64,000 nt of DNA from Diplonema papillatum. Its lineage: Eukaryota; Euglenozoa; Diplonemea; Diplonemida; Diplonemidae. The position numbers were made by a program, and so were the translations under genes. The stretch is from NCBI GenBank assembly GCA_030068145.1, contig JAPJBO010000064.1, forward strand, positions 56,001 through 120,000, written 5' to 3'. This document shows positions 5,506-64,000 of the stretch, one piece after another. The notes beneath the pieces were generated by a model. It saw only the letters and a list, made by a program, of their open reading frames with translations. It did not search any database and was not told the DNA's origin. How positions within the stretch are numbered: position 1 is the first letter of the stretch; the number at the start of each line of letters is the position of its first letter.

Positions 5506-6665
5506 GTTATGATTCGTATCAGCGCCCGCACACGACCGGGATGGAAAAAGGTATTGTATGTGTGGGTTCAGCGAGTAGGATCGGCCACCCAAACAGTGTG
5601 TCGCTGTGGTGGGCAACTACATACGGGCACAAAACAAACGTGTATCGTGCCGTGGCAAGCGTCGCACACCAGACTCTGCAGAGGGCCGCGCTTTACTTAC
5701 ATTGGCATTTCGGATATGGCACCACTACTGAGACAATATGCTCTGCTGTGGCGAAACAGCGAATTCTCCGCCCCTTCGCGATATATACCGCTTCCCTTCC
5801 TCGTTTCCGTTCTATCTCTCTTCAGCTTTGCTTGTCGTTCTTCAGTCAAAATGGGATAAGCTCTGAAGGGTAATGCGACCACCCTGTGGATTGTTGCCCT
5901 TGGAGAGCGCGAGTGGGGACCTCGACGAGAGCAGCGTTGTCTGAGGAGGGACTGGTAGGGGGCACTTGTGCCTCGGGCCAGCTCACGGAATCGCGGTACG
6001 CCCGCTCCCCGCTCGCGCCATCTCGCCATTCGCTTTCCACATCGCCTTTCCCCCCTCCCCAACAGTTGTCTGCTTTGCAGTTTCCTTCCGCCGAGAGCCC
6101 ATCCGCTCACGAGAAAGTAAATAAAAGGTATAAATGGTCGGTTCCTGCGTTTTGCCCCGTTTCGACGTAGAAAACCCATTTTACCAACGGTCACACGGAG
6201 CCCCTAAACCCCCGGCTTTTCAAGCGAACTATAACTCCAAAACCAGGTGCGCGCGAATATCACTTTTCGGTGCTTGGTCCTAGAAGACCCGGGGCGGAAG
6301 GAGATGAAGCGCGGTGACTTCGGCCATCGGAAATAACGTCGGCGTGCAAGTCTCAGAGTCAGTGGGTTATAATTATGCCGGCAGACCAAAGTGGAAAAAG
6401 GAACGGGCGGGGTGCTTTGTTTACACGCGCTCGGGAAGTTAGTGTAGGACTACATCTTAATACTCGATATGCAGCCGGTGGCTGACTGTGTGTCCAAACG
6501 GTCCGGACAGGGTTTGTAGTCCAGGATTTGTGGCAACAAAACGCACCTGGCGATTTGCATACTGAAGTCACAAGAACAGGACATCGCAACCGACGAGAGT
6601 TCCAACAAGAATATGACGAACTGACGTTCATCATAGGTTGGGAAGTGCTTCTGGTACACCGTGCA

Positions 6666-7440: not shown

Positions 7441-7717
7441 CTGAGCAACGCACTATGCTATACCAGTGTATCTTGGCTCTCGGAACGATGAAGACCGCGG
7501 CCAGACGCGATAGTTGCAAAAGCAAGACTCATCAGGCCGTCGAACGCATTAGCGGGCTGGGTTCGCCCATGCCCATCAGAATTTGAGTGTCGCTTGAAAA
7601 TCGAATCTCTCAGCTAGCCCACACCCACACCAAACCCTCAACCGTGACGGATCCTTAAAACCCGAAACAGTCAATAAACACACAGGTCTGGTACGTACAT
7701 CTCCCCCCCCAGACCCC

Positions 7718-11213: not shown

Positions 11214-12954
11214 GCTAGCTGCTTGCGTGTTGCCAGCGGGTCGCAGATCGAAAATGAAAAAAGACTTTGTTTGTGCGCACTTACTTCAAACCTGTTTTGT
11301 TCATCTAACGGGAGTGAGGATAGTACGCTGCCATCGACCTGTTTTTGTTCTCGACAAATTGCATTTGTTAGACACAAAAAAGAAGCACAAACAGTCGAAA
11401 GACACTGTACGCCCAGACGGGAAACAAAAATAGCCAGCCGGAAAATGCTCGCGCGTAAAAACGTGTTGTTCCCTAATTCCATCGGCAACACCTTGCGGCA
11501 TGCACAGTGCGCGCAGCCGACGCCGGAGGGAAGTCAGCAGCTTGCTTTAGTCGTCCAGGTCGAAGACATACCGCCCCTCTGAACGAACTCGGAAGGCAGT
11601 TGAAACTAATTCGATGCAACAAAAACCACTCCAGAAGAAAAAGAAATGTGAAAACGGGTTTTTGCCTAGAGGCTTTTCGTGTTAGTGTTCGTGAAAGAAT
11701 GACCTCCGCCAGGGAAGTCTTCACACTATTATTAATTACTATTCCTGCGTGACGTCGCTACCAATTTAAAAGTGTTTGGAGGGAGATCGTTCGGCTGTTT
11801 GCTACTGATCTTACACTGAAGATGTGTTATCCACAAACTTCTGGTCATTAATATGCTAGCCATGACTACTTGCAGAATACGCGGTCGCACGCGACCGCGA
11901 CGGGACCTTTTTCCAACCAGCAAGACCAGCAACAAGTCAAAAGCGCGCCCTTCAAGCTACTTCCCTGAACGCAGCCGACTAAACCGGCGAACAACAAAAA
12001 GTCTGCACATGAATAATAAATAAACCGGATGGACCCTAACGTGCTCTAAAGCAGGGACCGATCTCCCACTTTCGTGAGAAAACGCGAAGAAACCACGCAT
12101 CTTTTTTACCCTACGCCGGCTAGTTGTTGTATTCGAGGAGCAAACTGTCAAGAGATCCGCAACTATTCTCGCTACAAAAGTACTGCTTTTCAAGCCACCG
12201 CCCATCTGGCCATTGGTACCCCGCCTGATGACACAGCACCCAGCAATGGTTCTTGCCATGCCGGTCCACTCCTGTCCCCTGAAACCGCACCGCATTGTCT
12301 GCCCTCTCCATCACCTAGTGACTAATGCAGGCCATCGCTACCCGTCGGCCCCTTGTTGATGCGTTAGCGGAGTCATTTTCACTCAAATGAGTACCACTAT
12401 CATCGGAGATGAACCGACTTACGGTTTAGGATGCATTATCTCTTGCTAGCACGCGGGTACATATGGGCGATGTTACCTGCATGCACGCATTACCTTGGGC
12501 GGTGCCGAAAAAGGAGCCCCTGCAACTAATCAGGAAGGACTACCCATGCGCAAACCAAACTCAAGCAACTGAATTTTCTGAAGCCACGGGTCAAACTCGA
12601 CGAAGACCTGGCGGTTCGTTTAGCCCAGAAGCGGCTTCGCTTGCGTGCCTGGGAACATGTTTACTCAGCACCCCAAGCGCAATGTGCGTCCGTCAGAAAG
12701 CCGTTTCAGACAAAAATCTCTACTTAGAGCCATGGTGCGAACAATGGACCGATACGGTTTACAGGGCAACTCCTGCTCAACTTGTAAGACGTGGGGAGCC
12801 CAAGAACACTCACCTAACCTGGCGAGAACTTGGTGTCGGTCACAAATTGTTTCGAACCTGACTCGCCAAAGCGACCAAGTAAGGTGTACACGAAAGAAGC
12901 CATGCATGCCCCCACAAACCCACCCGTATTAGCTTTAAAAGAACCCATTCGACG

Positions 12955-13010
12955 AAAGTCACCCGGAGACTCTAAAATCCCGGATTCTCAAGCGAACTAT
13001 AACTCTAAAA
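12955..13010 (+). repeat. short dispersed element (complete-looking copy)
   Basis: Near-consensus copy of the short element: cgacgaaagtcacc, then GGAGACTCTAAAATCCCGG, then CTCAAGCGAACTATAACTC and an A-rich end. Other copies or part-copies lie near 1345, 2590, 6196, 18860, 29434, 30490, 36475, 55518, 55997 and 63898, with a possible minus-strand copy near 26546-26585. Confidence 0.75.
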
Positions 13011-13263
13011 AAATGTATAGCCGACCTATCGGCCTTTGTGCGAGCGCTCTTGTATAAAGAGTATTCGGGCTTACCACCTAACATTATTATGCAAGCAAAA
13101 CAAATATCGCAAGCAACACAAGTCTCGCAAGCACTTCACTTTGACCAAGGACGCTTGCCTCACTGCCTTACAGAGTGAAAATGTTCGTTGTCTTCATTTG
13201 CTTTGCAAGAAGGCGAATCCACAAGCGAATCACGAAGTAAGGCACCACCAAGCAGGCATCTTA

Positions 13264-16955: not shown

Positions 16956-17221
16956 GTCTGCTTCCACCTTAATTTGAGCCAGTTCACCTACCCCCCCTGA
17001 AAACGATCTGAGCTCGATTCCGGCAATTGCACTCGGAGACCGACGAGCCAGAAGGTAACAAGCGCCGGCAACATGACACGGCGCCTGAGAGGTAAGTACA
17101 CGAAAAAAGTGAGCAGATGCAGAGATTGTTTGCATTCTAACCCAAAACGATTCCACTTTTTCCCACCACAACCCCAACCGCGTATTTTTTTTTTGATTTG
17201 CGTTTGAAACACCCCATCATC

Positions 17222-18241
17222 TTAAGCAAATTTAACGCTAAACATCGACAAAAGGTTGCCCGGAGACTGTTGACCCCGGGAATCTCAAGCAAATTTAACT
17301 CTAGAAATTGACAAAAGGTTGCCCGGAGACTGTTGACCCCGGGAATCTCGAGCAAATTTAACTCTAGAAATTGACAAAAGGTTGCCCGGAGACTGTTGAC
17401 CCCGGGAATCTCGAGCAAATTTAACTCTAGAAATTGACAAAAGGTTGCCCGGAGACTGTTGACCCCGGGAATCTCGAGCAAATTTAACTCTAGAAATTGA
17501 CAAAAGGTTGCCCGGAGACTGTTGACCCCGGGAATCTCGAGCAAATTTAACTCTAGAAATTGACAAAAGGTTGCCCGGAGACTGTTGACCCCGGGAATCT
17601 CGAGCAAATTTAACTCTAGAAATTGACAAAAGGTTGCCCGGAGACTGTTGACCCCGGGAATCTCGAGCAAATTTAACTCTAGAAATTGACAAAAGGTTGC
17701 CCGGAGACTGTTGACCCCGGGAATCTCGAGCAAATTTAACTCTAGAAATTGACAAAAGGTTGCCCGGAGACTGTTGACCCCGGGAATCTCGAGCAAATTT
17801 AACTCTAGAAATTGACAAAAGGTTGCCCGGAGACTGTTGACCCCGGGAATCTCGAGCAAATTTAACTCTAGAAATTGACAAAAGGTTGCCCGGAGACTGT
17901 TGACCCCGGGAATCTCGAGCAAATTTAACTCTAGAAATTGACAAAAGGTTGCCCGGAGACTGTTGACCCCGGGAATCTCGAGCAAATTTAACTCTAGAAA
18001 TTGACAAAAGGTTGCCCGGAGACTGTTGACCCCGGGAATCTCGAGCAAATTTAACTCTAGAAATTGACAAAAGGTTGCCCGGAGACTGTTGACCCCGGGA
18101 ATCTCGAGCAGATTTAACTCTAGAAATTGACAAAAGGTTGCCCGGAGACTGTTGACCCCGGGAATCTCGAGCAAATTTAACTCTAGAAATTGACAAAAGG
18201 TTGCCCGGAGACTGTTGACCCCGGGAATCTCGAGCAAGCTT
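17222..18241 (+). repeat. 63-bp satellite, 16 near-identical copies, in an intron
   Basis: ttgcccggagactg recurs every 63 bp from 17256 to 18201 (16 occurrences). Copies differ only at the edges and by one A-to-G change near 18111. Since 63 is a multiple of three, long open frames (332 and 366 codons on the minus strand) arise and should be ignored. The unit contains CCGGAGACTG, CCCGGGAATCTC and AAATTTAACTCTAGAAA in the same order as the dispersed short element, so the array looks like a tandem amplification of it. It occupies most of the inferred first intron (16956-18452) of the GNAT-like gene. Confidence 0.95.
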
Positions 18242-18452
18242 TAACACGGAAACAGTCTGGAAAAATTCAAGTAACTTAAGCATGCGTTAGTCTAGCCCGA
18301 TACAGCAAAAGCTTCGTACCGCCCACCGACCGCCTGCACCCAAACTGAACCTCACAAAACAAACAAAAGGTCGAGACACACCAATCTGTACGCCCCACGG
18401 GATCGTCGGAAACACAAGCCGCAGTCCTAAAAAAAAGTCTCTAAACCACCAG

Positions 18453-19286: not shown

Positions 19287-21830
19287 GGGGAGAGTTCACC
19301 AGCCGCCGTCCCCACTTTCTCCGGCAGCTTGTCCGTCCGCAATAGCTGCCATCTTCACCAGCAGCTCTTGTGCGCTCTCACCAGTGCAGCACTTCATTTT
19401 AAATCGGGTTACATCGGGATCGGGAATAGTTCAGATCTATCGCTTCTTCGGTGCGATCACCCCTTGTGTGACAAGGAAAGCGTCCGACCAACGTTTCAAT
19501 GAGTGGCCCTACCTTTCCGAAGCGAACCACGAAGCTAGTAGTCCACTGGCACATACCTCGCACCTTATTCACAAGGCAACGAGTACAGAGCAGTCGACGC
19601 GCAGACGAGCAGTAACGCGGCCCGCGTCGCAGGTGGCACTAACCGAAGAAGCCCGTGCGGCAGGGAGTGGAGACGAGGTGATGCAAGACGAAGGGGAAGC
19701 GCGAAGCGACCAGCCCGGACGGACCAGCAAGACGCAAGAAGGAGGGGGACGCGACCCAGAGACCCGGGCTAAGTAGCCTGGAACTAGTGTGATGGACCGT
19801 TCTTCGGAGGGGCGCACGCACTCAAAGCTCGACTTATACACACCTTATTCACAGCTCATGACTGACGGCGTGCTTTGCTACGTTCCCGGAGCCGCTCGCA
19901 GGCACATGCCAGACACAACGTTTTTCTACTACCGTCTTGAAACACGGACCAGGAGTCTAACGCGAGGCTGAGGGTGGGTGTCAAACCCACAAGCCGCACT
20001 GAACAAGGTTGAGGAAGCAACACAGCCCGATTCTGATTTACTGGAAAGGGATTTGAGGTCAAATCGATCTGAAAGATGGTGGCCTGTGCCTGGATAGGAC
20101 GAAGTCGGGGAAAACCTTGGCGGAGGTCCGTTGCGATGTTGACGTCCACCCGTCCGCTCTTGGCCGTCTCGACGGGCTCGTGTTCAGCCCAAGCTCCAAG
20201 TACGCCGCGCATTGAATTGAAGCTCTTTGATTTGGGGAACCGGTGACCACTTGTCTCGTAGGTTCTCGGTTCTGCAGCACCACCGAACACGTGAAGCATG
20301 GCCCCCGTGTACGGCTTTCCCCGGCACACTTGTGCTCACAAAGAAAGGGGAGGTCGCTGCTCACCTGCCAGATCCATCCCCGGCCGGATCCAGCTGCTAC
20401 CCCCGTCACTACCATCATGGTGCTGATGCACATAGGCTCTTGCGGGCTTGCGCCTGGCTTGTGTCTCTTGACCTGCTTTCATTAGCACACGGCAACGGTC
20501 CATCCCCCCCCTCCTGATAAACCGGTGATGATCTTGTAATGGACAGCTCCAGGCAAAATCTATGCAGCTCCGGGGGATAGGGATGGACCTGGCAGAAAAC
20601 TGAGAATCACACGGAACCAAAAATGGTTTTCGGACGAAACAGAAGCTGTTGCCTTTTTCCCCAGCGCGGCCCGTTTCCCGCGTTCTTCTTTTCTGTTTAC
20701 TCAACCTTGCGGGGTAGCCTTAGAGTGCGTTGTGAAAGCTTCGAAGCCGTATTCGGCTGTTTCGCGGAAATGACGCCACCTCTCCTTGCGATGTTGCAGA
20801 GGTCGTTATCACGGACGTTATGTATTCAGAAGTGTAAACCGACCTATTCGCCGAGGCTGCTGCGAGCCTAGCTCGAGAGGGACCACTGAATGCACAAGAG
20901 CTGCACGTGTGTGTTGAGTCTAGTTCCGAAGGGCCATGCCTACAATGCCCGAGCCGCGAGATTCAAGACCAGGCGACCAAGAGAAGGAGGGGGACGCGAC
21001 CCAGAGACCTGGCGAAGTAGTCTAGGTCCCGTGTGACGAGCCTTTCTTCGGAGGGACTCACCGTCAACGTTTGACATGCAGCGAGAGCCAAGACCAGGCG
21101 ACCAAGAGAAGGCGGGGGACGCGGCCAGAGACCGGAGTCCTTCTTCGCAGGGACTCACGCAGTCAGGGTTTGCCATGCAGCAGTAGCGGAGTGTTCCAGC
21201 CCGAACTTGCCTTCAAACACGCTTACACATCTTCAGGGTCCTCCGCTTTTTTTTGCTGCTCTTTGCAATTACCTTCGTGCACGTTGCATGTGAGCTACAA
21301 TAAAGAAACCGAGCGAGTGGAAGAACCCGGGGAGTCGGAGGAGAGAGGACGGTGGACACTGCGAAACATCAGTAGTTGCATCGCCCTCTTTGCCCATCCC
21401 TCTCGCCCCCCCTTCCCGGGGGACGAGGAGGGAAACCGCCGAGGCGAGAAGGGGGCAACACAACAAAAAAGAAGAGAAAAAAACCGCAAAGAAAAGAAAC
21501 GCGCACGTTTTTTTTTTGCTCGCCCGGCGGCAGTAAGAAGACAAAAAAAAAAAAAAAAAAAAAAAAAACGCACATACAAAAGGTCGAAAGACACCAATCT
21601 GTACGTCCATTCGGGATCGTCGGAAACACAAAAAAAACCGAAGCGCGCAAACACGACAAAAAGAAATACCACACCTCCCACACTCGTGTGTTACCTTTAA
21701 GAAACCCTTGCTTGTCCCCAGTTGCCAGCGATTCTCGTCCCAAGGGGGAGCGCGGGGCCTGTTGGGAGTCGGAAGCGTTCGAATCTGTGGCCCTTGCTTC
21801 GTGCGAAGTGTTGGGCTAGTCTGACACTGT
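19287..21830. other. repeat region without supported genes
   Basis: Contains a repeat with gatggaccgttcttcggagg (19790; relatives at 855 and, more diverged, 21030 and 21140), a block at 20130-20345 related to the duplicated repeat at 59.1-59.6 kb, and purine-rich and poly(A) tracts (21465-21575). No exon-like stretch is convincing. Confidence 0.5.
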
Positions 21831-26339: not shown

Positions 26340-26490
26340 CACGCATCCCTCTAGACTGGATTCTGGCTTAGAGGCGTTCAGCCATAATCCATCCAGTGGT
26401 AGCATCACGGCACTGTCCGATCGAACAACCGTAGATACCAGGGACTAGAAACGGGAGTTCCTCTCGTACTAAGTAGCCTCCAATATGCGT
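26340..26490 (-). rRNA. 3' fragment of cytoplasmic LSU rRNA (domain VI)
   Basis: On the minus strand this reads through the sarcin-ricin loop, AGTACGAGAGGAAC (complement at 26457-26470), followed at normal spacing by CTACCA...TGGATTATGGCTGAACGCC and TCTAAG-CAGAATCC, all landmarks of the LSU 3' end. Similarity stops abruptly about 20 nt 5' of the sarcin-ricin loop. No other rRNA parts are nearby. It may be a separate rRNA piece, as in organisms with fragmented LSU, or a dispersed pseudogene. Conserved bases are intact, which mildly favours function or recent origin. Confidence 0.75.
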
Positions 26491-28982: not shown

Positions 28983-30133
28983 AAAGCCTTCGTCTATAGC
29001 AAGGTCTACGATCTACGAGGCGCTGCCAACCTATGAGTGAAAACTGCTGCTCGCAGAAAAGAAGGAAATTGATCCGGACAGAGAGCCGGAAAGAGATCGC
29101 CACCATTGCGAAACAGTCGATGCCGACGCAGCATCCGGTGTGCTGCCACACCGACGGTCTCAGCGAGAAACTGTTCTGAACCATCAGCCGATTGGCGAGT
29201 GGCAGAGTTCTGCGGTCGGCTCCGATAACACTATGATGGTGATGACATCCTTGTCTCGAAGGGCCAGCATCGTTGTGTCCGCCACCATTTGTCTGTGGGA
29301 CCTAGCTAGCATCCAGGTCCACGGCCCTCCACGGTCCATCGCGCCATTGGGATGGCATCTTTACTGATGTCAAATGCCCCCAACGAAGCGTAGAGCAGAA
29401 ATGGAAACTAACAAGAAACTTAGACAAAAACAACGATAGGAGACCCAAGCCCCCGGAATTTCGAGCGAACTTCAACTCTAAAATAGAACACGCAAATAAT
29501 CAGGTGCCGCCGGTCAAGTTTCCTGCGCTTGGGATCCTAACAAGTTGTCCTCAAATGCCGCCATCGTAGCGTGACAACGGAGTCCAGCAACCCGTTCGCG
29601 AACTTGTTCGGTGTGGGTGTGCACGAACGGACCTGCGAACGGAATTCGGACGACTGCAAAGCCCAATCCCAGACCGAAACTAGCCCAGCACCTAACTGGC
29701 GCGCCTGACCCAGCGAGCTACGAGAGTCAAAAGAAATAGCATCTACCCCCTTTTTTCAAACAACCTTTTCTCTCTTCCTCCTTACTTTGCTCACAGGTGT
29801 CACGGCAAGTTTCCGAGAACGACTGTAGTTTTGCCTGCAGAAAAGAGAACCTGGGGTACAGACCAGGGCCCCACGAAGCCTTGTACACAACACGGCTACA
29901 ACACGAGGATGCAGCCGTGCTTGGGTGTGCACTCAGCCATCACAGGCCATTGGCTGCTAAGCAGCACTTAAGTTCCGCGTCGCGTCAGATGGGGGATCGG
30001 CGACCGCAACTCAATTAAGGTGCGGTCAACAGTGTCGCCTCGTGAAGGCCCCCCCATGACACCCTCATCACTATAGGCACGCGGCGGGAAACCCAAGAAA
30101 AAGCTCGCGGCTCGAAAGCGCAGCATTCAAAAA
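28983..30133. other. intergenic region with dispersed repeats
   Basis: Holds a repeat at about 29310-29425 (gggatggcatctttactgatg; second copy at 32015-32130) and a copy of the short element at about 29434-29485. No gene seen. Confidence 0.5.
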
Positions 30134-30466: not shown

Positions 30467-31509
30467 AAAAATAAATGACAAAAAAATCAAGTCAAGCGAA
30501 TGTTAACTCTAAAATAAAACACAAACCGACGAAGACCCCCAAAACCTTTTTCAACCTTTCCCTTCAAGCTACAGGGGGGGGGGGTAGGGGGGGTCAAAAG
30601 GTCTTTTCTTGCGTCAAAATGGTGACATTTTCAGCCTGTAGACTTAACGGCAGTTTAAGGCTAAAAAACATGCAACCCGCCTCAGAAATGCCCGGAAACG
30701 TGTTTTTGGGGGAAGTTTCATGGAAAATGGCCCAGGGGGGGGTGTATTAGTTGATGGTTTTAGGGTGGACACCGTTTGGTACCGGCTAGCAGCCTGTGGG
30801 TGTGCTTCACTGTTCATACCATGCAAAGATGAGACTACAATCACGTACAGGCAGCCACAAATGGAAGCAACAAAAGGGCGAACGACACCCAGGAGGAAGG
30901 CAGCTATGAACGTTGCTCGTCTGGATGGTTAACAACGTCCCAAAAGGTTCTCTGGGTCTTGCGCAAGCTGAGGTGTTGTTGACACCGCAGGCAGCAGCTC
31001 TTCCCCGAACTTCTGCTAGAGCGATATTCACAAAGTTCGATGTCTTTCCGAGAAAAACAATGAGATGCTCTCATCCGTAGTGGGATTTCCCAGATCCCAA
31101 CGTTTTTGTTGAAGGGATGCACGCGACAGTGTCTTTTATTCAAGTTCGCCTTTTGTACACCACCCCGAAATCTGTACACAGTACACGACCCTTGATAGCA
31201 CTTGTCCACGTGGCTGCAGGCGGACCCGACGAAAATAAGGGAACAAGACATCCTTCTGGTTCTCCTTGGGCGTGCACAGGGAGGTACAGGGAGATACTAG
31301 CCTTCAGCAAGTGTTCCCTCCCACTTTCTGGGGCCCCGGGCATGAAGATCTTGCCCTTGTGGCTCGAGTGTTCACAAGCCGACCCCACACTCGGAACCCC
31401 ACAGCAGCGCCTAACTCACGTTTGATACACGTTTGACATGAATTTTGCAAACGCAAACGTTTGCCAAACGTTCAAACGTTCAACGTTTGCCATGATCACT
31501 GCCCTAGGG

Positions 31510-34839: not shown

Positions 34840-36460
34840 GACAATCCAGCTGTTTCTTATTGTTCTCAGGTGCCTTTAATCGCGTGTTCACAAGGCACCC
34901 ACAACCGAGGACAGCAGGTGCAGGAGAGAATGGCGTCCATGCGGGCACACCTCCGGAACCACTGTGGGTAGTAAGCTGGACTTAAATAGACGTTTGGAGG
35001 TTGACCATGAGAAAGGTAGATGGTGAGAGGTATTTGGTCGCGCGAAGCACGAACGTCTTTTTTTCTTGAACGGGAAAAACACGCAGTCTTTTATCCCCGA
35101 GGTTTTATTATCCCGCAATCGAACCAGGTGAAAAATACTAATACCTAAGCACATACACACCTTCTCCGGTAGCTCCCGGTTCAGACTTCCGCGGTCTTCT
35201 TGCAAGATAAAATCCCGCAGCAAAACCAGCAAACCAGCATTTTGAAACTGCCCCTTTGAAGCTACTTCCCTGCCCGCCCACAAAGGGGGAAAAAATAAAG
35301 AGGAAAAAAGAGGAAACCAACCAAATCATATTCGCAAGGTGTGTGATCCACAGTAAGATACTTAACTTCCCATGCACTTCCCAAGTACTTCCCGCGAACA
35401 CCCAAATATGGGGGGGTGGATGCAAGGAAGATAAAATACACTAGCTCAGCCTGGATAACATAAAGGGTCAACGACAAAACGGATTCTATAACTGGATTGC
35501 GACAAAGTGGATTTATAATCCGCTTTGTCGCGACAAACTGGATTATAATCCACTTTGTCGCGACAAAGTGGATTATTAGTGGATTATGATCCAGTAATAA
35601 TCCACTCTGTCGCTTTTGATAATCCACTTTGTCGCTTCTGGCAACTGGCATGAATTGTATAGGGGGACCCTTTCACAAAAAGTTCCCCAGGGAAAGTGAC
35701 TATTTTGAGCTGTTTGCGTTCATTGAAACCATCAAAAATGACCGTCTTTTAACCGCGAAACGTCATCACAATCTTTTGCGCCTCTCGTCCAAATTCGTCG
35801 CGGCTCAACACAAATTGTGTTGGGAGATTTCCCCATCTCTTTGAGACTCTCAAACGTGAAAAATGGGCCTTTCGTCTTCACAATTCACGCTGTCGCGCAC
35901 GGGTCACGGGTACCGTCTCCGGCTGCTTCGGCAGACGACACATTCTACTACTACGGCATAGTACTAACAATCTTACGGGTTGCCCTTCAATGTATTGTGG
36001 CACGCACAAACAAAACGAAGCGCCTGTCTTTTTACGAGCACTCTTGCGTGTTGCCCGTCGCCCCACGTGTATGAGCCCACGAGCACCCCATGCACACAAG
36101 GCCACCGGATCCTGCCCAAGTTTTTTGTGGAATATTCTTGTTGTAGAAGCACCTGCTTTGCGAGAAATGCTTGAGGAAACTGCCAGTTGCGAAATCTCAA
36201 AGGTGTAGTGTGGTACTCATTGGCATGCCGATGACTCCCCACAATCGCAACAGTATTCCAATCTCAAAGGAGGTAAATGTGCTGTAGCCCACACGATCGA
36301 AAAAAACAGGGGTTAACGTGTGTACACCCTGTTTTGAGTAATATGGCAGACAAACAAGTTTGTTCTGATACTGTTTTGTAGATTGGGCCGTGTGCTGATG
36401 CTGACTCTTTTCATTAGCTTTGCCTTCAGCGTTTTGTGTCTAACAAATGCAATTTGTCAA
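34840..36460. other. intergenic region with palindromes and partial repeats
   Basis: Contains the palindrome cluster at 35470-35640, a dispersed block at 35965-36045 (relatives at 2518-2735 and 59961-60125) and a partial MITE copy at 36130-36295. No gene is supported. Confidence 0.5.
35470..35640. repeat. cluster of nested GTGGATTATAATCCAC-type palindromes
   Basis: At least four inverted pairs built on GCGACAAAGTGGAT and its complement ATCCACTTTGTCGC alternate through 170 bp, so several mutually exclusive hairpins can form. CGCGACAAA...TTTGTCGCG junctions repeat. It looks like overlapping inverted insertions of a TIR element. Confidence 0.75.
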
Positions 36461-36464
36461 GAAC

Positions 36465-36540
36465 AAAAAAAACCCCATAACGACGAAGGTCACCTGGAGA
36501 CTTTAAAACCCCGGATTCACTCTAAAAATATCGCTAAAAA
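36465..36540 (+). mobile_element. short (~66 bp) element insertion with AAAAA target duplication
   Basis: The flanks (gtctaacaaatgcaatttgt upstream, gatggcagcg and cgttagatgaacaaaac downstream) match the reverse complement of 11300-11385, where the two sides are joined by only AAAAA. Here the same point carries 71 extra bases: about 66 bp including ctggagactttaaaaccccgg plus a second AAAAA. Compared with fuller copies (12955) it lacks the middle CTCAAGCGAACTATA part. Confidence 0.85.
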
Positions 36541-36654
36541 CAGATCGATGGCAGCGTCCTAACCTCACCCCGTTAGATGAACAAAACATGTTTGAAGGAA
36601 GACGAATGCCAAAAAGCTCATCATTAAGCAAACAGATCAGGGGATTAGTTTACG

Positions 36655-36885
36655 TTACATCGATCTAAATCTGCAAACCGGACTCGGCCGGAGAGCCACA
36701 GGCTCTTCTGCGGTGACCACCCTTGACAGGATGGTTGTTTTGGCCCCCCTCAGGGCGCTTTCCTTGGCCCCCGCCATGCGAGAGTAAGCGGGCCTGGCCA
36801 CGTCAGGCCCCACCATCTCTTCGACCCAGTCTTTGAAGTGCTGGGCCGGGTCCGCGGCCACGCGCTGCCATTCCTCGGCGGTCAT
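36655..36885 (-). CDS. possible 76-aa ORF or exon (unidentified)
   Basis: Minus-strand ATG at 36885, stop at 36655. It begins MTAEEWQRVAADPAQHFKDW and is clearly GC-richer than its surroundings, as true exons are in this window. No family recognised; it could be an exon, a retroelement piece or chance. Confidence 0.3.
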   Translation of the reverse strand: MTAEEWQRVAADPAQHFKDWVEEMVGPDVARPAYSRMAGAKESALRGAKTTILSRVVTAEEPVALRPSPVCRFRSM

Positions 36886-38299: not shown

Positions 38300-40080
38300 G
38301 TTCAGAATAAGTGCGTTCTAGCACTAGTCTCCGAATACGTGCTTGTTTTGCCCTACGTTTGCGTAACAGTTGCCATCGGCAACGAAAGCAACATAGTAAA
38401 ACTTGCACTCTAAAACAAGGCTCGGAAAAGTGCTTCGCGGAAACGAGCAAGGGAGGATTAACCTTGCTTACCCACACTCACATTTCGAGAATCAGAACCT
38501 TCAAAGAAACCTCAACTGAACCTTCAAATGAAATGCTCGACGATGCTGCCAGACTAAGAACCGAAGGGATCCCAAGTGCTGTAACTACCGAACCACGTGT
38601 TGAACAGACGTGCGGTCAATGCGGGTCTACCCCTACACGACAAATTACACAAACACAACAGGTCAAACTCCTGAGTGAGAAAAAAATAAGCGAAGCACAA
38701 GTCAGATTGTGTTTGTATTGTATTTGCCCCCTACCTCTATATTTCCTCCTTTCCATTCGGAGTCAAAGCAGCTACGTCGAGTATTTTAAAATGGCTCCTG
38801 GGCATATTTTCCAAAGGGAAATGTGCCTAAGGGCACATTTCACATTGAGAATAGTCCCCTAAGGCACCTTACCCTACTTTTTCGTGGCTGGTTCTTTTGT
38901 GTTAACAATGCATTGTTGGTACTAAAAATTAGTAGTTGGCAGCGTACTAAAAGCAACTCACCAAAGCAGGTGAACAGCCGCTAGTGCGCACAAACAAACG
39001 GAAGCGCCATACTAATTTTTTTCTCCAAACAAATTCTCTGCCTTTTCCGCTGAACCGTGCCGTACTACTAGTTTGTTCCAGCAGAATATCACGGGAGTCA
39101 CCCCCCCCAGCCGACCCCACACTCGGATCCCCACTGCAGGCACTCACGCTTGATACACGTTTGACATGAATTCTGCAAACGCAAACGTTTGTCAAACGTT
39201 CAAACGTTCAATCAAATGCATCGCCTTTCTCACCCCACCTCCTTTGGTGAGTTTGCAGGAGCCGGATTCAGTTTGCAGGAGCCGGATTCAGTTTGCAGGA
39301 GCCGGATTCAGTTTGCAGGAGCCGGATTCAGTTTGCAGGAGCCGGATTCACTTGCGCAGTTCCGAAGCACCGCACGCGCGAATGGCGTAAAGGTGATAAG
39401 GTTGTTATTCGAGACCCCCTGCCCGACACCCGTGTATTTTGTATAAGCACCTGCTGTAGGAAATACTTGAGAAGACTGCCAGTTGCGAATTCTTAAAGGA
39501 GGACGATCGCGCCCCCGCGTCGACCCAGCTCGTCCCTTCACGACTGCCGCATCTCGCCGTACCACTCGGCGGAAACGGGAGAACGAGGACCCGGTTCTGA
39601 CTACGAACCCGCCACTAGCTACCAGCAACCGTTGCAACCGTCGCGAGTTGCACAGCGTCAGAAACGCGCCAAGAGTGACCCTTCCGGAGTCACGTGGCAG
39701 ATGGGTGGATGGTGGTACTTATCGGCATGACGGGGAATCCGTAGACAAACCAGACCAACACCGCTGCCCTACTCAGGTTCTGCGCTGGCTTATGTGTCCG
39801 TGGCTTAAAAGACCGAAACACGGCGCAGACGGGACCAGCGCGGTGTTGAGCACATATCCATTCCAAGCAATCTTCCCAACTGTAGTAGTTGAGGAAGGTG
39901 CAAAATATGGAGACCGCTACAGTCCTGCACGACACTTGGGCACGTGCCTCGTGCGGGGCAGGTGGGCCTGCGATCCGCTTTGAGAACCCTGGAGTCCGGC
40001 ATGTGTGCCGTTTCCGGTACATGTCGGCTTCCTGCTCATGGGGGACCAACCGTCTCATACCTCAAACATAGGACAAGCCA
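38300..40080. other. repeat region without supported genes
   Basis: Contains a family member at 38935-39020, the repeat 39090-39215 with overlapping AAACGTT palindromes, the 20-bp tandem array at 39251-39350, a partial MITE copy (39438-39505) and the partial 240-bp repeat (39790-39870). Confidence 0.5.
39251..39350 (+). repeat. five perfect 20-bp tandem repeats
   Basis: GTTTGCAGGAGCCGGATTCA is repeated exactly five times. The unit is not a multiple of three, so any protein reading would cycle through frames. Confidence 0.95.
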
Positions 40081-50898: not shown

Positions 50899-53800
50899 GT
50901 ATGTGCCTCTGCGCGGCTCTTTGTTTGTTGAAAAAGCAACCGAGAAGGCCCCCGAGCGTTGCGAATTGCAAAATAGCGTGGTACGCATCAGCACGCTGAT
51001 GTCTTCCCGACAACGCAATAAGAGCGAGCGTCCAGTGAAGCCATGCGTCAACATGACCCAATGGCTGAAGCATTGCCAGTGCCGGGCGCTAGCGTCTGGC
51101 ACGAGCAAGGATGGCTGGAAAGTGAGCCGACGAGTGGACACTTCCACTAAAGCACACAGTGGAAAATTGGCACACCAATGTCTCCCCACTCTGCGACCGT
51201 AGTTCTAAACACGAGAACATCTGCGTTTAGGGCGTGTGCCTTGATGCGTCGCGACGTTATACCTCTCGGGGGCATCATGTTTCGGTTTCCCAGCTCCGCA
51301 GCCCATTTTCTTCGCTCACACTGCAGGTGCTTCAGTGTAGCTCGACTTGCAGGCACGACTTGCAGTGCAATTTTGATCTTTGTGCAAACAGCCAAAGGAG
51401 AAACGGGGACAGAGTCCTGAAGCTCAAGCGGGCGACGTCACCGCCTGATCGACTTGCTGCTTCTGGAAAAATCCCGCACGGTTTCCAGAGAGAGTGTGAG
51501 CCATGCCATTGCACAGACTTGAGGGTGGTCCTAGCACCACCTGCAGGGTATAGCAGCGCCCAAAAATACACGCAGGGGCTGACAGCTGAGAATTGGCTTT
51601 TTTTGCGTTTTGCCATCCTCCTCGGCTGACGAATAGCAAAAGCCTTGCCAAAAGGCACGAAACAAAAGTCAGAAGGGCAAAATGCATTTCTTTATTGGTG
51701 TCCCACTCACTGTTCGAACTTAACACAACAGCTCGCGCGCGCATGTAGAGTAACAAATCCTGCCCGTTCTTTGCTTTACACCGAGCTGCACTTGCGCAGC
51801 ATCCGATCGCAGGCAAAAGAACAACGACAAAAGCGCATGACGCAGCTCAGTCAAGTTGGGGTATCTTGTCTTTGTTTTCTCCCAAACTCAATACAGTCAT
51901 GTCCGGGGTTATCTTGTCTTCTGGGTTTTGCAGTTTACTGAGGGAATAGGAGCAAGGCGCATGGCTAGATGAGCACGACCACCTCGAATCGACACCAGGA
52001 GAATTCGGGTGGGGCTGGCTTCGACGACTAGAAATATCGGTAAATGGTAGCACTCCTGAACTAGCTCAAACCAACAGGATCGAAGAATGTCAGTCCAACC
52101 TTCCCGATTCTTTTTTTGAAAGTAGGCCAATACTGCAGGGAATAGTTGACTAGACCTCTTGAGTTTGTGCTAGCCACGAATTGGGGAGTCGGGAGAACCA
52201 ACAAAGCCAAAAGCAGTACCGACCCCCCGTTCGTGAGAAAAAGCGAAGAATAAAATCACCTTCTTTTTTCCATCTATCTTTGTCAAGAGCTGCAACTCAA
52301 CTATTCTTTTTTTTTAGCCACATGCAATGTGTGAGGAAACTGAACCGCCCAAGTAGGATCTTCTGATCATGATCATTTGCCAAATTTTCCACCTGAAACC
52401 ACGTCCAGGATTTGGGCTCAGGGTAGTGCGGTCAACGAAAACTCTAGTTTCCCTTTCTACTTTCTCCTACTCTCGCGGTGTACGTTTTTTTTTTTTTTTT
52501 TGTATAAGCACCTGCTTTGTAGGAAATACTTGAGGAGGCTGCCAGTTGCAAAAGATCAAAGGAGGTAAATGTGCTGTAGCCCACACGAAACACAGGTGAA
52601 TCTGGGTTTAGTGGCGGGCGTAAGCGTTCAACAAAAAAAGACCCATTTTGTAGTTGTATTGTTTCTCCCCCTCTAGCCTCCTTCGAAGTAAGCACAAGGC
52701 AGCCCCTCGAGTATTTTTAAATTCAAGTCGGGGGGTATCTGTCTTTTGTCTTTAGCGGTTCTCGCAATGTCAGTGCTCTGTGATTGCGAGGGCCTGCGCC
52801 TTTAGGCACGGCCTCCAAGCACCACGCGCTCAATTAGACAAGGTCTCTTGTTCCCCCCTATAAATTTGACGAAGGCGTTGCGGAAATTCGAGCGACCTTT
52901 CACTCATGAAAACACGCAGGTTCACAGCTGGTGCGACCAAAATGACCTTCGACTGTACCAGGATGTGTACTCGAAGCTTCAAGAGCCAGACGGGCTGCTT
53001 GGAGTCCGGTTCTTGCGACAGCAGAACGAGTTCGAAGAGCAACTCGAAGAGCAAGCGGTCGATCTCGAAACTGGAGGGGTCTGCTTTTTCGATCTCTTTT
53101 CCTTTTGGCAGTTTCAACCATTGGTGCTACAGACGGCAACCCCGTGTCGACTGTGCTTTGCGGAGTTTACTGCGCACATTACACCGCAAAAAGAAGACAA
53201 GTTGAGACAAATCGTGCGGTCTAGCGAGGGTATAGCTGATTGCTCAGACGGTTGTAGCCATGACTGACTACTTGCAGGCGGGACTGCGAAGACGTGACTG
53301 CTACCCCCCGCCTCCCGAGCCGCCCCGGGGATCTATCTGTTCTGATGTGCTGCTTTCACCCTGGTCGGTGTTTTGCGTGGAGCTGCCCTCAACTTCAATC
53401 CAACACAGATGTGGTCCGATGCTGCGCAACGGTACGAACTGCTGATCGAACAGAATCCGGAGAATCCCCATTTTCAAGTATGCTGGCGTTCGTTGGTTGT
53501 TTTCAGCGAGAAATCCACAAAACGATTTCGTTTGCCGTCGGTGCCATTGCGCAGAGTTCAGAAGGTTCGGGCGGCGGTTGCTTGTGGTTACGGTGCCGTA
53601 TGCACCCACAACGCATTCAGAGCACTTTCTTTGGCTGACGAGAGACAAGAACGGCGGGTCGCACGCCAGGCTACAAGCACACAAACACACACCGCGCCTA
53701 TCATTTTTCATCGTCTGCCAAGAGCTGACAAAACTCTGGGAACGTGCCGGTATCGAACGGCGGCGATCCCCCGCGAGACGAGCTCACCCGCCGGCCAGAG

Positions 53801-56800
53801 CGCCCGCTGCAGCACCAACTCCGGTGCCTCCACTCACTGCAGCAGAGCCGCAACTTGCAGCGCGCCTCCGGAGCGACTTACGCCCGCCGTAGCAGCACGA
53901 AGAGAAGTGAAGAGACCGGAAACTCCCCAGAGGGATGGTCCCTGCACTCTAACTCGTCTCTCTCTCTCTCTCTCTCTCCCTCTCTCTCTCTCGAACTTTT
54001 TTCCGGCTTTGTGCGACACACAATTACACAAAACGCTACAAGATCAGACTAAGGATTTCATCTTATATGGCTATATACGCTTTTCCGCTCAGTTGTGGGT
54101 TGCAGCAGACGCGAACAATTTGCATTGCGCGACTCAGCTGTTCCCACCACCACGCACCGCCACACACGTCGACAGGAGCGCATGATGGAGTGCCTGCAAT
54201 CTCTCGGCCAGTACTCCGTGATGATCGCGTACTCGGAAAACCGCATCCACCTGCGGCGGTACACGTGCCAGGCGGCGTGGCGGCTGAACAACTGGGACCT
54301 CGTCGAGGCGTGCCTGAAGAACACGCCGGACGCCGGCGAACTCGACTTCGAAACGGGCCTCGCGCTGTCCCTCCTGCACATGAAACGCGGCGATTACCGG
54401 AAGGTCCCGCAGACGGCGGACCGCACCCGGGCGGGGATGCACTCGGATTTCGTGGCGGCGTGCCTCGAGTCGTACGAGACTGCGTACAAGCATTTGGTGA
54501 AGCTGCACGCGCTGACCGACGTGGAACGTGCGGCGGAGGTGGCGCAGGAGGTGAAGGACAACGTGACGCCGGGCGTCACGGGGTTGATGACCACCGAGCA
54601 ACTCCGCGCGGCACTCGTCGACGACCTGCGCCGGCACGCGAACCTAACGGAGCAGAGCCCTGAGACCCGTGACACCATCCTCGCAGTCCGTCGGGGGGTC
54701 TGCTCGGTGCTCGGCCTACACAAGGACGCGTCGCGCACGTGGCTTGAAGTCGCGAAGCTCTGCCGGAATGCGGGGCTCTTCCAGGTCGCCGAGGGCGCGC
54801 TGCTGCGCGCGGAGCGGCTGCCGAAGCTCGCGCACAGGCCGGAGGGCCTCCTGCTCGAGCAGGCCAAAATGCTCAAGGCGCAGCACAAGGTCCACGCCGC
54901 GCTGCGCATCATCTGCAACCCGGACCCGTCGACCCTGAAGTACGAGCGGGCGCCGGAGACGGCGGTGGCGAGGCTGCGCCTGCGGTCGATCAACTGGCAG
55001 TCGGAGATCAACAACCTGCCCGCGAACGACGTCATGCAGGAGTATGCTTCGCATCTTCTCCTCTACGACAGCTTTTAACCCCCATAATACAGGAAGAAGA
55101 GTCACTAAACTTTAGTCTAAATCACGGAACGTAGCACGAGCCTAGGACACACCCTTTGCGAGTCTAGAGAAACCATGTTGCTCAGGGCGGCGAACGATGT
55201 AATGGAGGACTATGCTCTGTTTTGTCTCCTCTCGAAAACACGTCACAGTCCATGGCAAACCATGGCAAAGAAACCTCAATTATTTTGTCGCTGAAGGCAC
55301 TAAACATAATTATCTTGGCGATAGCGAAGAGTAAAATAATAACGCGCGCTGCGAATAAAGGATGAAACCCGGAGTTGCAGACGCACTTTGCACTCCTGTA
55401 ACGATGCGAAGATTACTGGCTAGCCAGTACTTGTAATGAGCGTGTGCACCTACAGCCTGTAGGCACCCCACCAACCCCTCATTACTTGTTTGTTTTAAAC
55501 CCCCCACATTTGACAACGGCCGGAGACTTCAGAATCCCGGAATCTCAAGCGAACGTTAATCGAAAAACAGGTACCAAAGCATCGCTGCGAAGTGGCCGAA
55601 CGAGGAAGTGTACCATGCGTGGGTTCCTTTCTGGAGAAGATCTTCACGTCGACGAAGGAAGGCACCCCTGAGACGAACAAGGGGCAGGCCCAGCTCGAGG
55701 AGCAGGTGAACACGGTGAAGGAGTCGGTGCCCCGGATCCTCCGGTACTACGCGCGCTCGCTCACGCTCGGGATGAAGTACCTGTATCATTCCCTCCCGCG
55801 ACTGCTGTCAACGAGCTCTGCGAATAAGAGATGAAATCAGTCACTTCAAGAAACCCGGAGTTGCAAGCGCACTTTGTACGCCTATAACGACGCGAAGATT
55901 ATTGGCGAACCAATACTAGTAATGAAAAGTGTAGACCTAGGAACCTGACCAACCCCTATTTACTTGTTTGCTTTAAAACCCCACATATTTGACAACGGCC
56001 GGAGACTTCAGAATCCCGGAATCTCAAGCGAACGTTAATCGAAAAACAGGTACCAAAGCATCGCTGCGAAGTGGCCGAACGAGGAAGTGTACCATGCGAT
56101 GGGTTCCTTTCTGGAGAAGATCTTCACGTCGACGAAGGAAGGCACCCCTGAGACGAACAAGCGGCAGGCCCGGCTCGAGGAGCAGGTGAACACGGTGAAG
56201 GAGTCGGTGCCCCGGATCCTCCGGTACTACGCGCGCTCGCTCACGCTCGGGACGAAGTACCTGTACCACTCCCTCCCGCGGCTGCTGTCGATCTACGTCA
56301 ACGAGCTCTCGGGGCTGGTCGCCGCCTCGCAGGAGTCGAAGTCGGCGTCGAAGGCGAACGTCAACCTCTGCGGGAAGACCGCCGCCGTCCTCAACGCGGC
56401 CATGGAAGAGGCCCTGTCGACGCTGTCGAGCCCCGTGCTGTACACTTCGCTCAGCACGCTGATCCCCCTCCTCACCCACCAGTCGCCGTCGGCCGTTCGC
56501 CTGTTGGCCCGTTTCGTCCGCAAGATCCTGAAGCAGTACCCCGAGCGTGCCGCGTGGTCGCTGATGTGCTTCATGTTCTCGTCGCGGCAAGAACGCATCG
56601 ACGTGCTCGACTCCGAGGTCATGGTGCCGATGGCAGCGAACCGCGCCGAATTCGGCCGTGCCCTGGAGCTCATCGAGGAGGCGAAGGTCGCAACGACGGC
56701 CATCAACAAGCTCGCCGCCCAGAAGGTCCCGCCGGGGACGCGCCACGTCAGCTTCCACACGTTCGACTTCGCGGCGCCGCTCACGCGGCGCCTGCCGCTG

Positions 56801-61967: not shown

Positions 61968-64000
61968 AAGGGCGGCCTGTAGTGCCAAGAGTCTATACCC
62001 ATCCGCGGCTCGCATCAACCGGAGTCGGACGGCTATCCGGCGAAGACTGTTTAGTCGTGATGAACGGTAGGGCGCCAGTGACTTCGCAGTGTGGCCCACT
62101 CAAGAGACGAAGACTAGGGTCGTGATGTTCGCACCACAAAACACAGAAGACAGTGAAATGGTCGTTCCCTGGTCGGGTTTCGCTCGCGACCGTTTCCTGA
62201 ACAACCCTTCACTAAATCCGCGGTTAAATAACCTGGCCTCAGTGGTACAAGCACCACGCGCTCTTCAAACCCAAGAAACATTTCCCCCCCGGGTACCTGG
62301 ACGCTTGTTTCTTGGTACAGGGCGCAAGGTCAGCCGGAGGGCAGAGCGGACGGGGTTGTAGCACTGTGCTGCCTTCGACTCAAGCTTTGTAAGCTGTGGT
62401 TGACCGTCACGTTTCAGGACCCGGAGCGGCCTTTCTCTTTTTCTGGTGGGGGCAGGTTGTCTTACCTCCGCTAATTCGAGAAGGAGCACCCAGCCTAGCC
62501 CTATGCTGTCAGTGTACGTACGCGTGCCCGTACGCCAATCTTTTTGTATAAGCACCTGCTTTGTAGGAAATACTTGAGGAGGCTGCCAGCTGCAAAATAT
62601 AAAGGACGTAAATGTGCTGTAGGCCACACGAAGTGAATCTGGGTTCAGTGGCGGGCGTAAGCGTTCAACAAAAAAGACCCACTTTGTAGTTGTATTGTTT
62701 CTCCCCCTCTAGCCTCCTTCGACGTAAGCACAAGGCAGCCCCTCGAGTATTTTTTTGGCGTACGCGTACGCGTACCAGGGGTTCGTCCATGCCTATCAGC
62801 AGTAGTGAGTCGCTTGAAAATTGGATCTCTCTCAGACTCCGCCCGACTCTCGATTCAGCAACGATTGGCTTGCTTGACCATGTTTCAGTCGATCCATTTG
62901 ACATGAGAATGTGGCGGCGCAGAAAATAATTTTTCCGATGGATGGTCTGTCCGGATTGAAATCCAGGACCCGACAACGAGCGTCGCCACTCCAGCGACTG
63001 AAAGAACACCAGCGACAATGGGGGCGCGAGCACCGCAACAGCACAAGCCAAAGGAGGATTGACAGCCTGTGGGGCAAGTCTGCCCAAAGGTTACATGTGG
63101 TGACAGAACGCGGGGCCACGAAGTCATCTGCCAGGGCATTTCTGCGGCGTTGAGCTCTCGGACTATCCTCGTTCCTCATCCGGATAGTCTACTCGCCCTG
63201 CTTCCTTGCCCTGCTTTATGTGCACTACATAGCGTGGTTACGACGTACGAAACTTTAGACTCCGATAAAGCTATAGGCGTCTGCAGAACAACGAACATCC
63301 TCTAGACAACCCCCCGTTGAACATTTCTTTCGGTCGAGCGGACGAACCATCCAGAGCGCCCTTACCCAGCACGGACTCGGCTCGCTGCTTAAGGTTCTTA
63401 CTCTGCACGGCCTTTATTCCCCAGAGTCAGCAAGCATGTCGTGCAGGAGCGTGTCACACGGAACACCACTCGCCCCTGTTGTTGTCGCGCTACCTATCCA
63501 ACGGCGGGAAGACGGCGGCTCTGTCCTCAGAGGCCACCCATACTAGCCCCTTCTATCAGTGTCCGATCAGCGATGGGCGAATCGCTGCCTGGCGGGACGA
63601 CGGCCGCAGCCGGAAAGAAATGGGAGACCGATCGGCCATTCACATGCGTTTTGCCCAGGCAGCCGGGGGGGGGGCGGGGGGGCTGGTGCTTGTTTGGTGT
63701 TCGTTCGTCGCTCGAACCAAAAGGTTGGACGAGCGGCGCGCCTCGAGTGCCGCGTTTTCGCTTCTTTTCCGCTCTTGGCTCGAGTTCGCCGACCAGTTCG
63801 GGCTCCCGGGCCCCGGCAAAACGTCTGATGCACCAGTCCAGTACCTGCAGTTGTTCTGCACCTGCTTTGTAAGAAAGAACCAAGAGAGAACCCATTTAAC
63901 ACGGAGACCCTAACATCCCGGAATTTCAACCGAACCTTAACTCAGAATACCTACGAAATCTCAAAGGATCCACTGCTGCACAACCGAAGAAGGAGTCCAA
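61968..64000. other. terminal region with repeats
   Basis: Includes an inverted copy of the 59 kb repeat (62300-62430), a MITE copy (62543-62755), a block at 62780-62842 shared with 7568-7620, a GC-rich stretch at 63560-63850 with open frames on both strands but no known motif, and a short-element copy at 63898-63950. Confidence 0.5.
62543..62755 (+). mobile_element. MITE-like repeat, near-complete copy
   Basis: Runs from tttttgtataagcacctgc to cccctcgagtatttttt with both terminal inverted repeats. A small deletion removes the gtgaaacacagg portion. It is flanked by cgtacgcgtacg-like sequence on both sides (62506-62535 and 62758-62775), possibly a target-site effect. Confidence 0.75.

Follow-up and report, generated by a model that had tools for sequence, protein, structure and literature searches.

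Euglenozoa with one-way gene clusters carry short, non-autonomous, high-copy retroposons, among them SIDER1 and SIDER2 of Leishmania, RIME, and NARTc. Within Leishmania gene clusters, sense copies of SIDERs are about 4-fold commoner than antisense copies, according to portions of PMC2689281 and PMC2424063. Introners, as presented in part of PMC9860276, are short and dispersed, with duplications of 3-9 bp in some families. For the genome of Diplonema papillatum, sections of PMC10161547 report 52% repeats, many of no known origin, and a commonest motif with about 6000 copies at 90% identity or more. Here, we describe a family of D. papillatum sequences, the core family, that is likewise short, non-autonomous, and present in high copy number, and that appears to resemble the Leishmania SIDERs in its behaviour.

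The window, that is, the whole stretch of 64,000 nucleotides that was analysed, contains a directly read insert of 66 bp on the + strand (36470-36535), which copy comparison places in the core family as a 5'-truncated copy. It lies between two AAAAA (36465-36469 on the left and 36536-36540 on the right, both +), recognised as a duplication by direct reading and by comparison of copies of the host repeat, and it includes the core GGAGACTTTAAAACCCCGG at 36496-36514 (+), located by pattern search of the window. Read directly, the occupied site has the layout ..GTCAAGAAC-AAAAA-(66 bp)-AAAAA-CAGATCGATGG.., and the empty site at 11.3 kb, on the opposite strand, has the layout ..GTCGAGAAC-AAAAA-CAGGTCGATGG.., with a single AAAAA (11342-11346, - strand, read directly) between the flanks. 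Both sites are copies of a repeat that we call F, the left part of which at the occupied site (36436-36464, +) consists of 29 bases with 336 exact copies in the genome. The pair of occupied and empty sites described in an earlier note on this DNA is therefore real, and its statement that no terminal inverted repeats are visible agrees with a search for inverted pairs of at least 12 bp, none of which was reported in 36300-36700.

To establish which state came first, F copies from the window and from sampled loci were read from a left anchor, after removal of rows with identical left 25 bases and content. In this sample, which is biased because the search query itself carried an insert at the A-run site, 25 copies were readable across the site, 20 of them empty (at most 9 bases between fuzzy anchors) and 5 filled. 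The anchors are 3-4 bases apart in the empty copies and 74 (36.5-kb copy), 79, 238, 71, and 50 bases apart in the filled ones. The filled copies (L031, which is the 36.5-kb copy, L032, L033, L034, and L036) carry inserts of differing sequence, all at the single A5 of F, between AAGAAC plus A5 on one side and A4-A5 on the other. A5 flanks the insert on both sides in L031, L032, and L033; the right-hand run is A4 in L034, and the left-hand one reads AATAA in L036. Since 20 of the 25 copies are empty and differing inserts occupy the same A5, the 11.3-kb state is ancestral and the insert is derived; on the same observations, a precise deletion was rejected as the source of the 11.3-kb site. On this comparison the earlier note was right to see a mobile insertion, to take the empty site as ancestral, and to recognise a duplication of 5 bp of A. 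The F copies themselves (L032-L060) mostly share one common end, T-run-GTGTC, and have another end of two classes, ..ACAAACAAA or ..GATCCG-TTTTT.

The short retroposon families to which the insert is related share a 3' end, ..GGAGACTTTAAAATCCCGG..CTCTAAAAA. In the 271-Mb, 2910-contig genome, exact matches to the core GGAGACTTTAAAATCCCGG number 47, and 5605 places match it at up to 2 mismatches, compared to 0 for a reversed control pattern. The window holds 7 matches at up to 3 mismatches, whereas 100 shuffles yielded 0.00 on average. Both comparisons indicate that the core is not a chance word. A profile search of the window (E ≤ 0.1) gave 18 hits, 9 inside a tandem array of 63-bp period and 9 outside it. 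The "at least ten other places" claimed for the core earlier is an overstatement, as there are 6 others at up to 3 mismatches and the profile finds 9 places outside the array with the 36.5-kb copy included. Copies detected by the profile on the + strand lie at 6175-6243, 29452-29484, and 63899-63950, with a fragment at 1341-1360; that at 2586-2645 belongs to subfamily B and ends in ..AACGCTAAAAA, and that at 12941-13012 belongs to subfamily D, with similarity over about 256 bp left of the core (profile and copy comparison). The main-text parts of PMC10161547 examined do not describe this family, its truncation, its target, or its orientation, and among the matches listed for titles and abstracts on diplonemid SINEs or short retroposons, D. 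papillatum repeats or introns, and introners there was no such family. It may already be an unnamed entry in the supplements of PMC10161547.

We compared the ends of 96 copies, each with an exact match to any of three core variants and including some near-duplicates, viewed over up to 480 bases to the left. The right end is constant in 80/96 copies, with a median alignment end at +43 to +52 from the core start, and 5' truncation is variable, the left ends being scattered from 2 to 435 bp upstream of the core. The 36.5-kb copy is among the 16/96 copies that lack the common right end, a few of which are explained by locus ends or duplicated loci. The sharp common ends anticipated for the family are thus present at the 3' end (80/96) and absent on the left, where the ends range from -2 to -435. 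Several subfamilies have a 3' tail of about 65 nt in common, core included, which stops at ..CTCT (or ..CGCT) beside an A-run, and the core persists even where subfamily bodies are different. On the right, the similarity among A and D members breaks off at one shared point, whereas on the left the point of divergence varies. Several A copies have about 250 bp upstream of the core in common (up to 395 bp in the longest), similarity in D extends as far as 435 bp, and the family similarity reaches about 440-480 bp in some copies. The outermost left segment of some A copies belongs to a second family, H, with an A-terminal end of its own elsewhere; subfamily A may therefore be a composite of uncertain true length. 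An open frame of 47 residues in subfamily D gave no lead, and the longest open frame among the rows listed has 249 aa.

These results bear directly on the nature of the 36.5-kb insert, which retains 26 bp left of the core and has an atypical tail, part of the common tail being missing and an extra ..ATATCGCT end preceding A5; this end resembles the ..ATAACGCT end of subfamily B. The insert is the 3' end of families similar over at least 250-300 bp, so the element is not one of only about 66 bp as had been supposed. It is a genuine, derived insertion, a shortened copy of a larger and very abundant family, and the apparent 66-bp transposon becomes a case of strong 5' truncation. We consider it extremely unlikely that the family consists of MITEs, i.e., non-autonomous DNA transposons that make 5-bp AAAAA duplications. 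The duplications at F sites do have this length, but terminal inverted repeats were not found in 36300-36700 and the left end is not fixed among the 96 copies; a DNA transposon was rejected on these grounds.

Target-primed reverse transcription with early stops would be expected to leave a constant 3' end beside A-runs, 5' ends at scattered positions, and short duplications. We consider it likely that a short non-LTR retroposon, SINE-like and non-autonomous, gave rise to the insert as a 5'-truncated copy by target-primed retroposition at A-runs. The retroposon RNA would pair an A-terminal 3' end with a nicked T-run of the bottom strand, reverse transcription would begin at this T-run and usually halt early (after 66 bp here), and joining of the second strand would duplicate the A-run; the enzyme would be supplied by a separate autonomous element. 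Of the readings offered earlier, the small retroposed unit is the one that survives.

The junctions were also compared in the wider sample, where 67/96 copies were testable; left junctions were estimated, which makes this test weak in either direction. Words shared between the two junctions average 4.18 (n = 67, left junctions estimated), exceeding all 200 re-pairings (mean 3.50, maximum 4.14), and shared words of at least 7 bp show no excess at these estimated junctions (4/67 versus a mean of 2.45 in re-pairings). A-runs of at least 4 occur at 19/67 estimated left junctions and in 11/62 nearby windows. A-rich 5-bp duplications, expected at many copies, are seen as A5 at the F sites; outside F the duplications are weak, with an effect on the mean shared-word length only. 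Because the duplication and A-run signal of the wider sample is weak, the A-run rule rests mainly on the F set, which is query-biased. An improbable alternative is patch repair, in which short pieces of RNA or cDNA are captured by microhomology at A-run breaks without a dedicated nicking enzyme. It would fit with the shortness of the pieces, with the ending of several families (core, B, and H) at A-runs, and with the lack of an excess of long duplications, but A5 flanks the inserts on both sides in F and a constant 3' end in 80/96 copies requires a single priming polarity.

Compared to SINEs in general, the core family is alike in its shortness, in the lack of a long open frame among those seen, in its constant, A-flanked 3' end, and in its 5' truncation. 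It differs in having no tRNA, 5S, or 7SL head in the loci scanned, by Rfam (seven loci) or ARAGORN (six loci), and no partner LINE tail in 15 reverse transcriptase loci. We call it SINE-like rather than a SINE because the scanned loci have no Pol III-type head; an origin from an Rfam family or a tRNA was rejected on these scans of few loci. Folding of the core RNA was no better than that of shuffles. Whereas SIDER, RIME, and NARTc have the 79-nt Pr77 at the 5' end as their hallmark, the core family shares its 3' end. A scan with Rfam models at E ≤ 5 gave 0 hits in four copies (L105, L111, L116, and L122), and no HDV-like ribozyme, the other feature of the SIDER/ingi clade considered, was seen in the few loci scanned. 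The duplications differ too, being 5 bp of A at F, whereas the screen described in part of PMC4035085 was for 7-11 nt. The 15 reverse transcriptase loci, read out of 4330 first-look candidates and including several close relatives, yielded no autonomous partner, with the core in 0/15 within 4 kb downstream (best profile E-value 1.2); their 3' ends were therefore discarded as the source of the tail. Seven of these loci (L081-L085, L087, and L089) are LINE-like copies in which a T-run of about 14 or more lies within 1-5 bases after the poly(A) 3' end. The T-run follows the poly(A) end in 7/8 reverse transcriptase loci with an end visible in 420 bases, a kind of junction that differs from that of the core copies.

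The earlier note had also considered the insert introner-like. Introners and the core family are alike in being short and dispersed, but introner similarity extends up to both splice boundaries, in the part of PMC9860276 that we drew on, and core copies share one end only. In the ATR gene, two apparent acceptors, judged by eye, directly follow a copy or a relative: a core-family copy at 55985-56039 (+, profile) stands directly before that of the exon at 56050, and a diverged, core-less relative at 52864-52919 (+, by eye) directly before that of the exon at 52920. These two cases and the sense orientation described below would suit an intron-making element. However, the left end of the 36.5-kb insert lacks GT, left ends are scattered, no enrichment of CAG is seen downstream of the 3' end (2.03% versus 1.80% further on; 71/89 distinct copies), and other ATR acceptors, near 54175 and 57420, have no recognisable copy by eye. 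There is hence very little likelihood of an intron-making element, and the introner-like label falls on the first three of these points. On present evidence the copies are not intron-making, though an acceptor may occasionally be provided or displaced by one.

The 18 profile hits in the window all lie on the + strand, and so do the coding segments of the window, located with a codon model trained on window ORFs, with the exception of one RNase H-like stretch. For the first 100 cores listed (contigs C1-C9), strand agreement between neighbours separated by more than 5 kb is 56/69, compared to 14/33 for F and 12/32 for reverse transcriptases in the same test. By distance class, 62-89% of all core pairs agree, the lowest value being 10/16 at 5-20 kb. 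F is an imperfect unbiased control, since 7/8 F places on C2-C8 share the strand of the nearest core. The second A-terminal family, H, has 1491 places in the genome at up to 2 mismatches, including window 21582-21607; it has a constant 3' end, ..GTCGGAAACAC-A-run, and follows the gene strand too. In 35/40 pairs, H agrees with cores 2-50 kb away, the pairs not being independent. Compared with protein kinase genes, core, H, and D together matched the gene strand in 11/12 cases within 100 kb and 22/26 within 200 kb (a subset), and within 300 kb the agreement was 13/15 for core, 14/15 for H, 10/11 for D, and 13/21 for F (subsets); neighbouring kinases were on the same strand in 14/14 pairs (a subset). 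Coding segments within 1.5 kb of 95 copies were sense in 19 and antisense in 6, with no clear coding segment near the other 70; the 19 sense cases represent about 15 separate loci, 2 of the 6 antisense cases are one duplicated locus, and 20 loci are only 0.6-1.6 kb long. Given this strand coherence and the agreement with kinase genes and coding segments, the orientation of the sampled copies is that of transcription, in a genome whose genes form long one-way clusters; such clusters fit D. papillatum as presented in sections of PMC10161547.

In the sampled places, the core family thus has a feature of the SIDER/ingi clade, a sense bias within one-way gene clusters, which counts in favour of the retroposon reading and has a precedent in Euglenozoa in the about 4-fold excess of sense SIDERs. 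A large diplonemid repeat family points with transcription, whereas the reverse transcriptase loci in the same test do not. This orientation, the retention of the core although subfamily bodies differ, and the SIDER precedent (part of PMC2689281) would also suit an RNA signal for processing or regulation that selection maintains in the sense strand of polycistronic units, with its spread being secondary. We regard such a signal as very improbable, as movement of the sequence is evident from the existence of both filled and empty F copies, and 70/95 copies have no clear coding segment within 1.5 kb, 20 of the loci being of the short kind noted above.

Target supply explains only part of the sense bias, because A5 and T5 runs stand at about 60:40 (129:84 in the window and 249:173 in oriented flanks). 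Strand asymmetry of A-runs was accordingly rejected as the sole cause, at about 60% compared to about 85% agreement with the gene strand. The bias may come from selection or from the insertion step. Our suggestion for selection is that an antisense copy would place a T-run followed by AG in the pre-mRNA, a possible trans-splice acceptor. Orientation could instead be fixed at insertion and not by later selection, through transcription-coupled retroposition, e.g., if T-runs nicked in the template strand of polycistronic units served as primers during active transcription; we put this forward tentatively, as rather unlikely. If it were true, thousands of tiny copies would record the direction of transcription. 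If the sense bias held genome-wide, DNA alone would suffice to map polycistronic units. It could then be asked, as it can for SIDERs, whether selection or the insertion step gives rise to the bias.

Derivatives of the family are also found in the window. The tandem array of 63-bp period (17093-18337, +, profile) has a diverged core element as its unit, with 16 registered start points and about 19 units by length, and is a retroposon tail become satellite. Possible tail-only copies lie between A-runs at 30487-30510 (about 24 bp, +) and between A4 runs at 38402-38411 (10 bp, +), and L029, L103, L044, and L052 show candidate tail-only pieces between A-runs, 10-20 bp long and in some cases arranged serially. 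Tail-only copies of 10-24 bp (those two, L044, and L052) look good singly, but as a class they were rejected as not above control, with 4 core-less hits versus 3 and 3 for two control patterns. The ATR-intron copy recurs at 55508-55560 (+, profile) in a 479-bp tandem duplication (55508-56100) that spans the intron end and the exon start and resembles the repeat-bounded genes of D. papillatum in sections of PMC10161547. By eye, the ATR introns have GTATG donors, which fit the diplonemid splice sites given in part of PMC12621601; its introduction describes D. papillatum as genetically manipulatable. Fragments of rRNA, 5.8S-like at 7455-7592 and LSU-like at 26341-26490, lie 19 kb apart on opposite strands, and such dispersal fits the scattered 28S pieces of D. 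papillatum reported in sections of PMC10161547.
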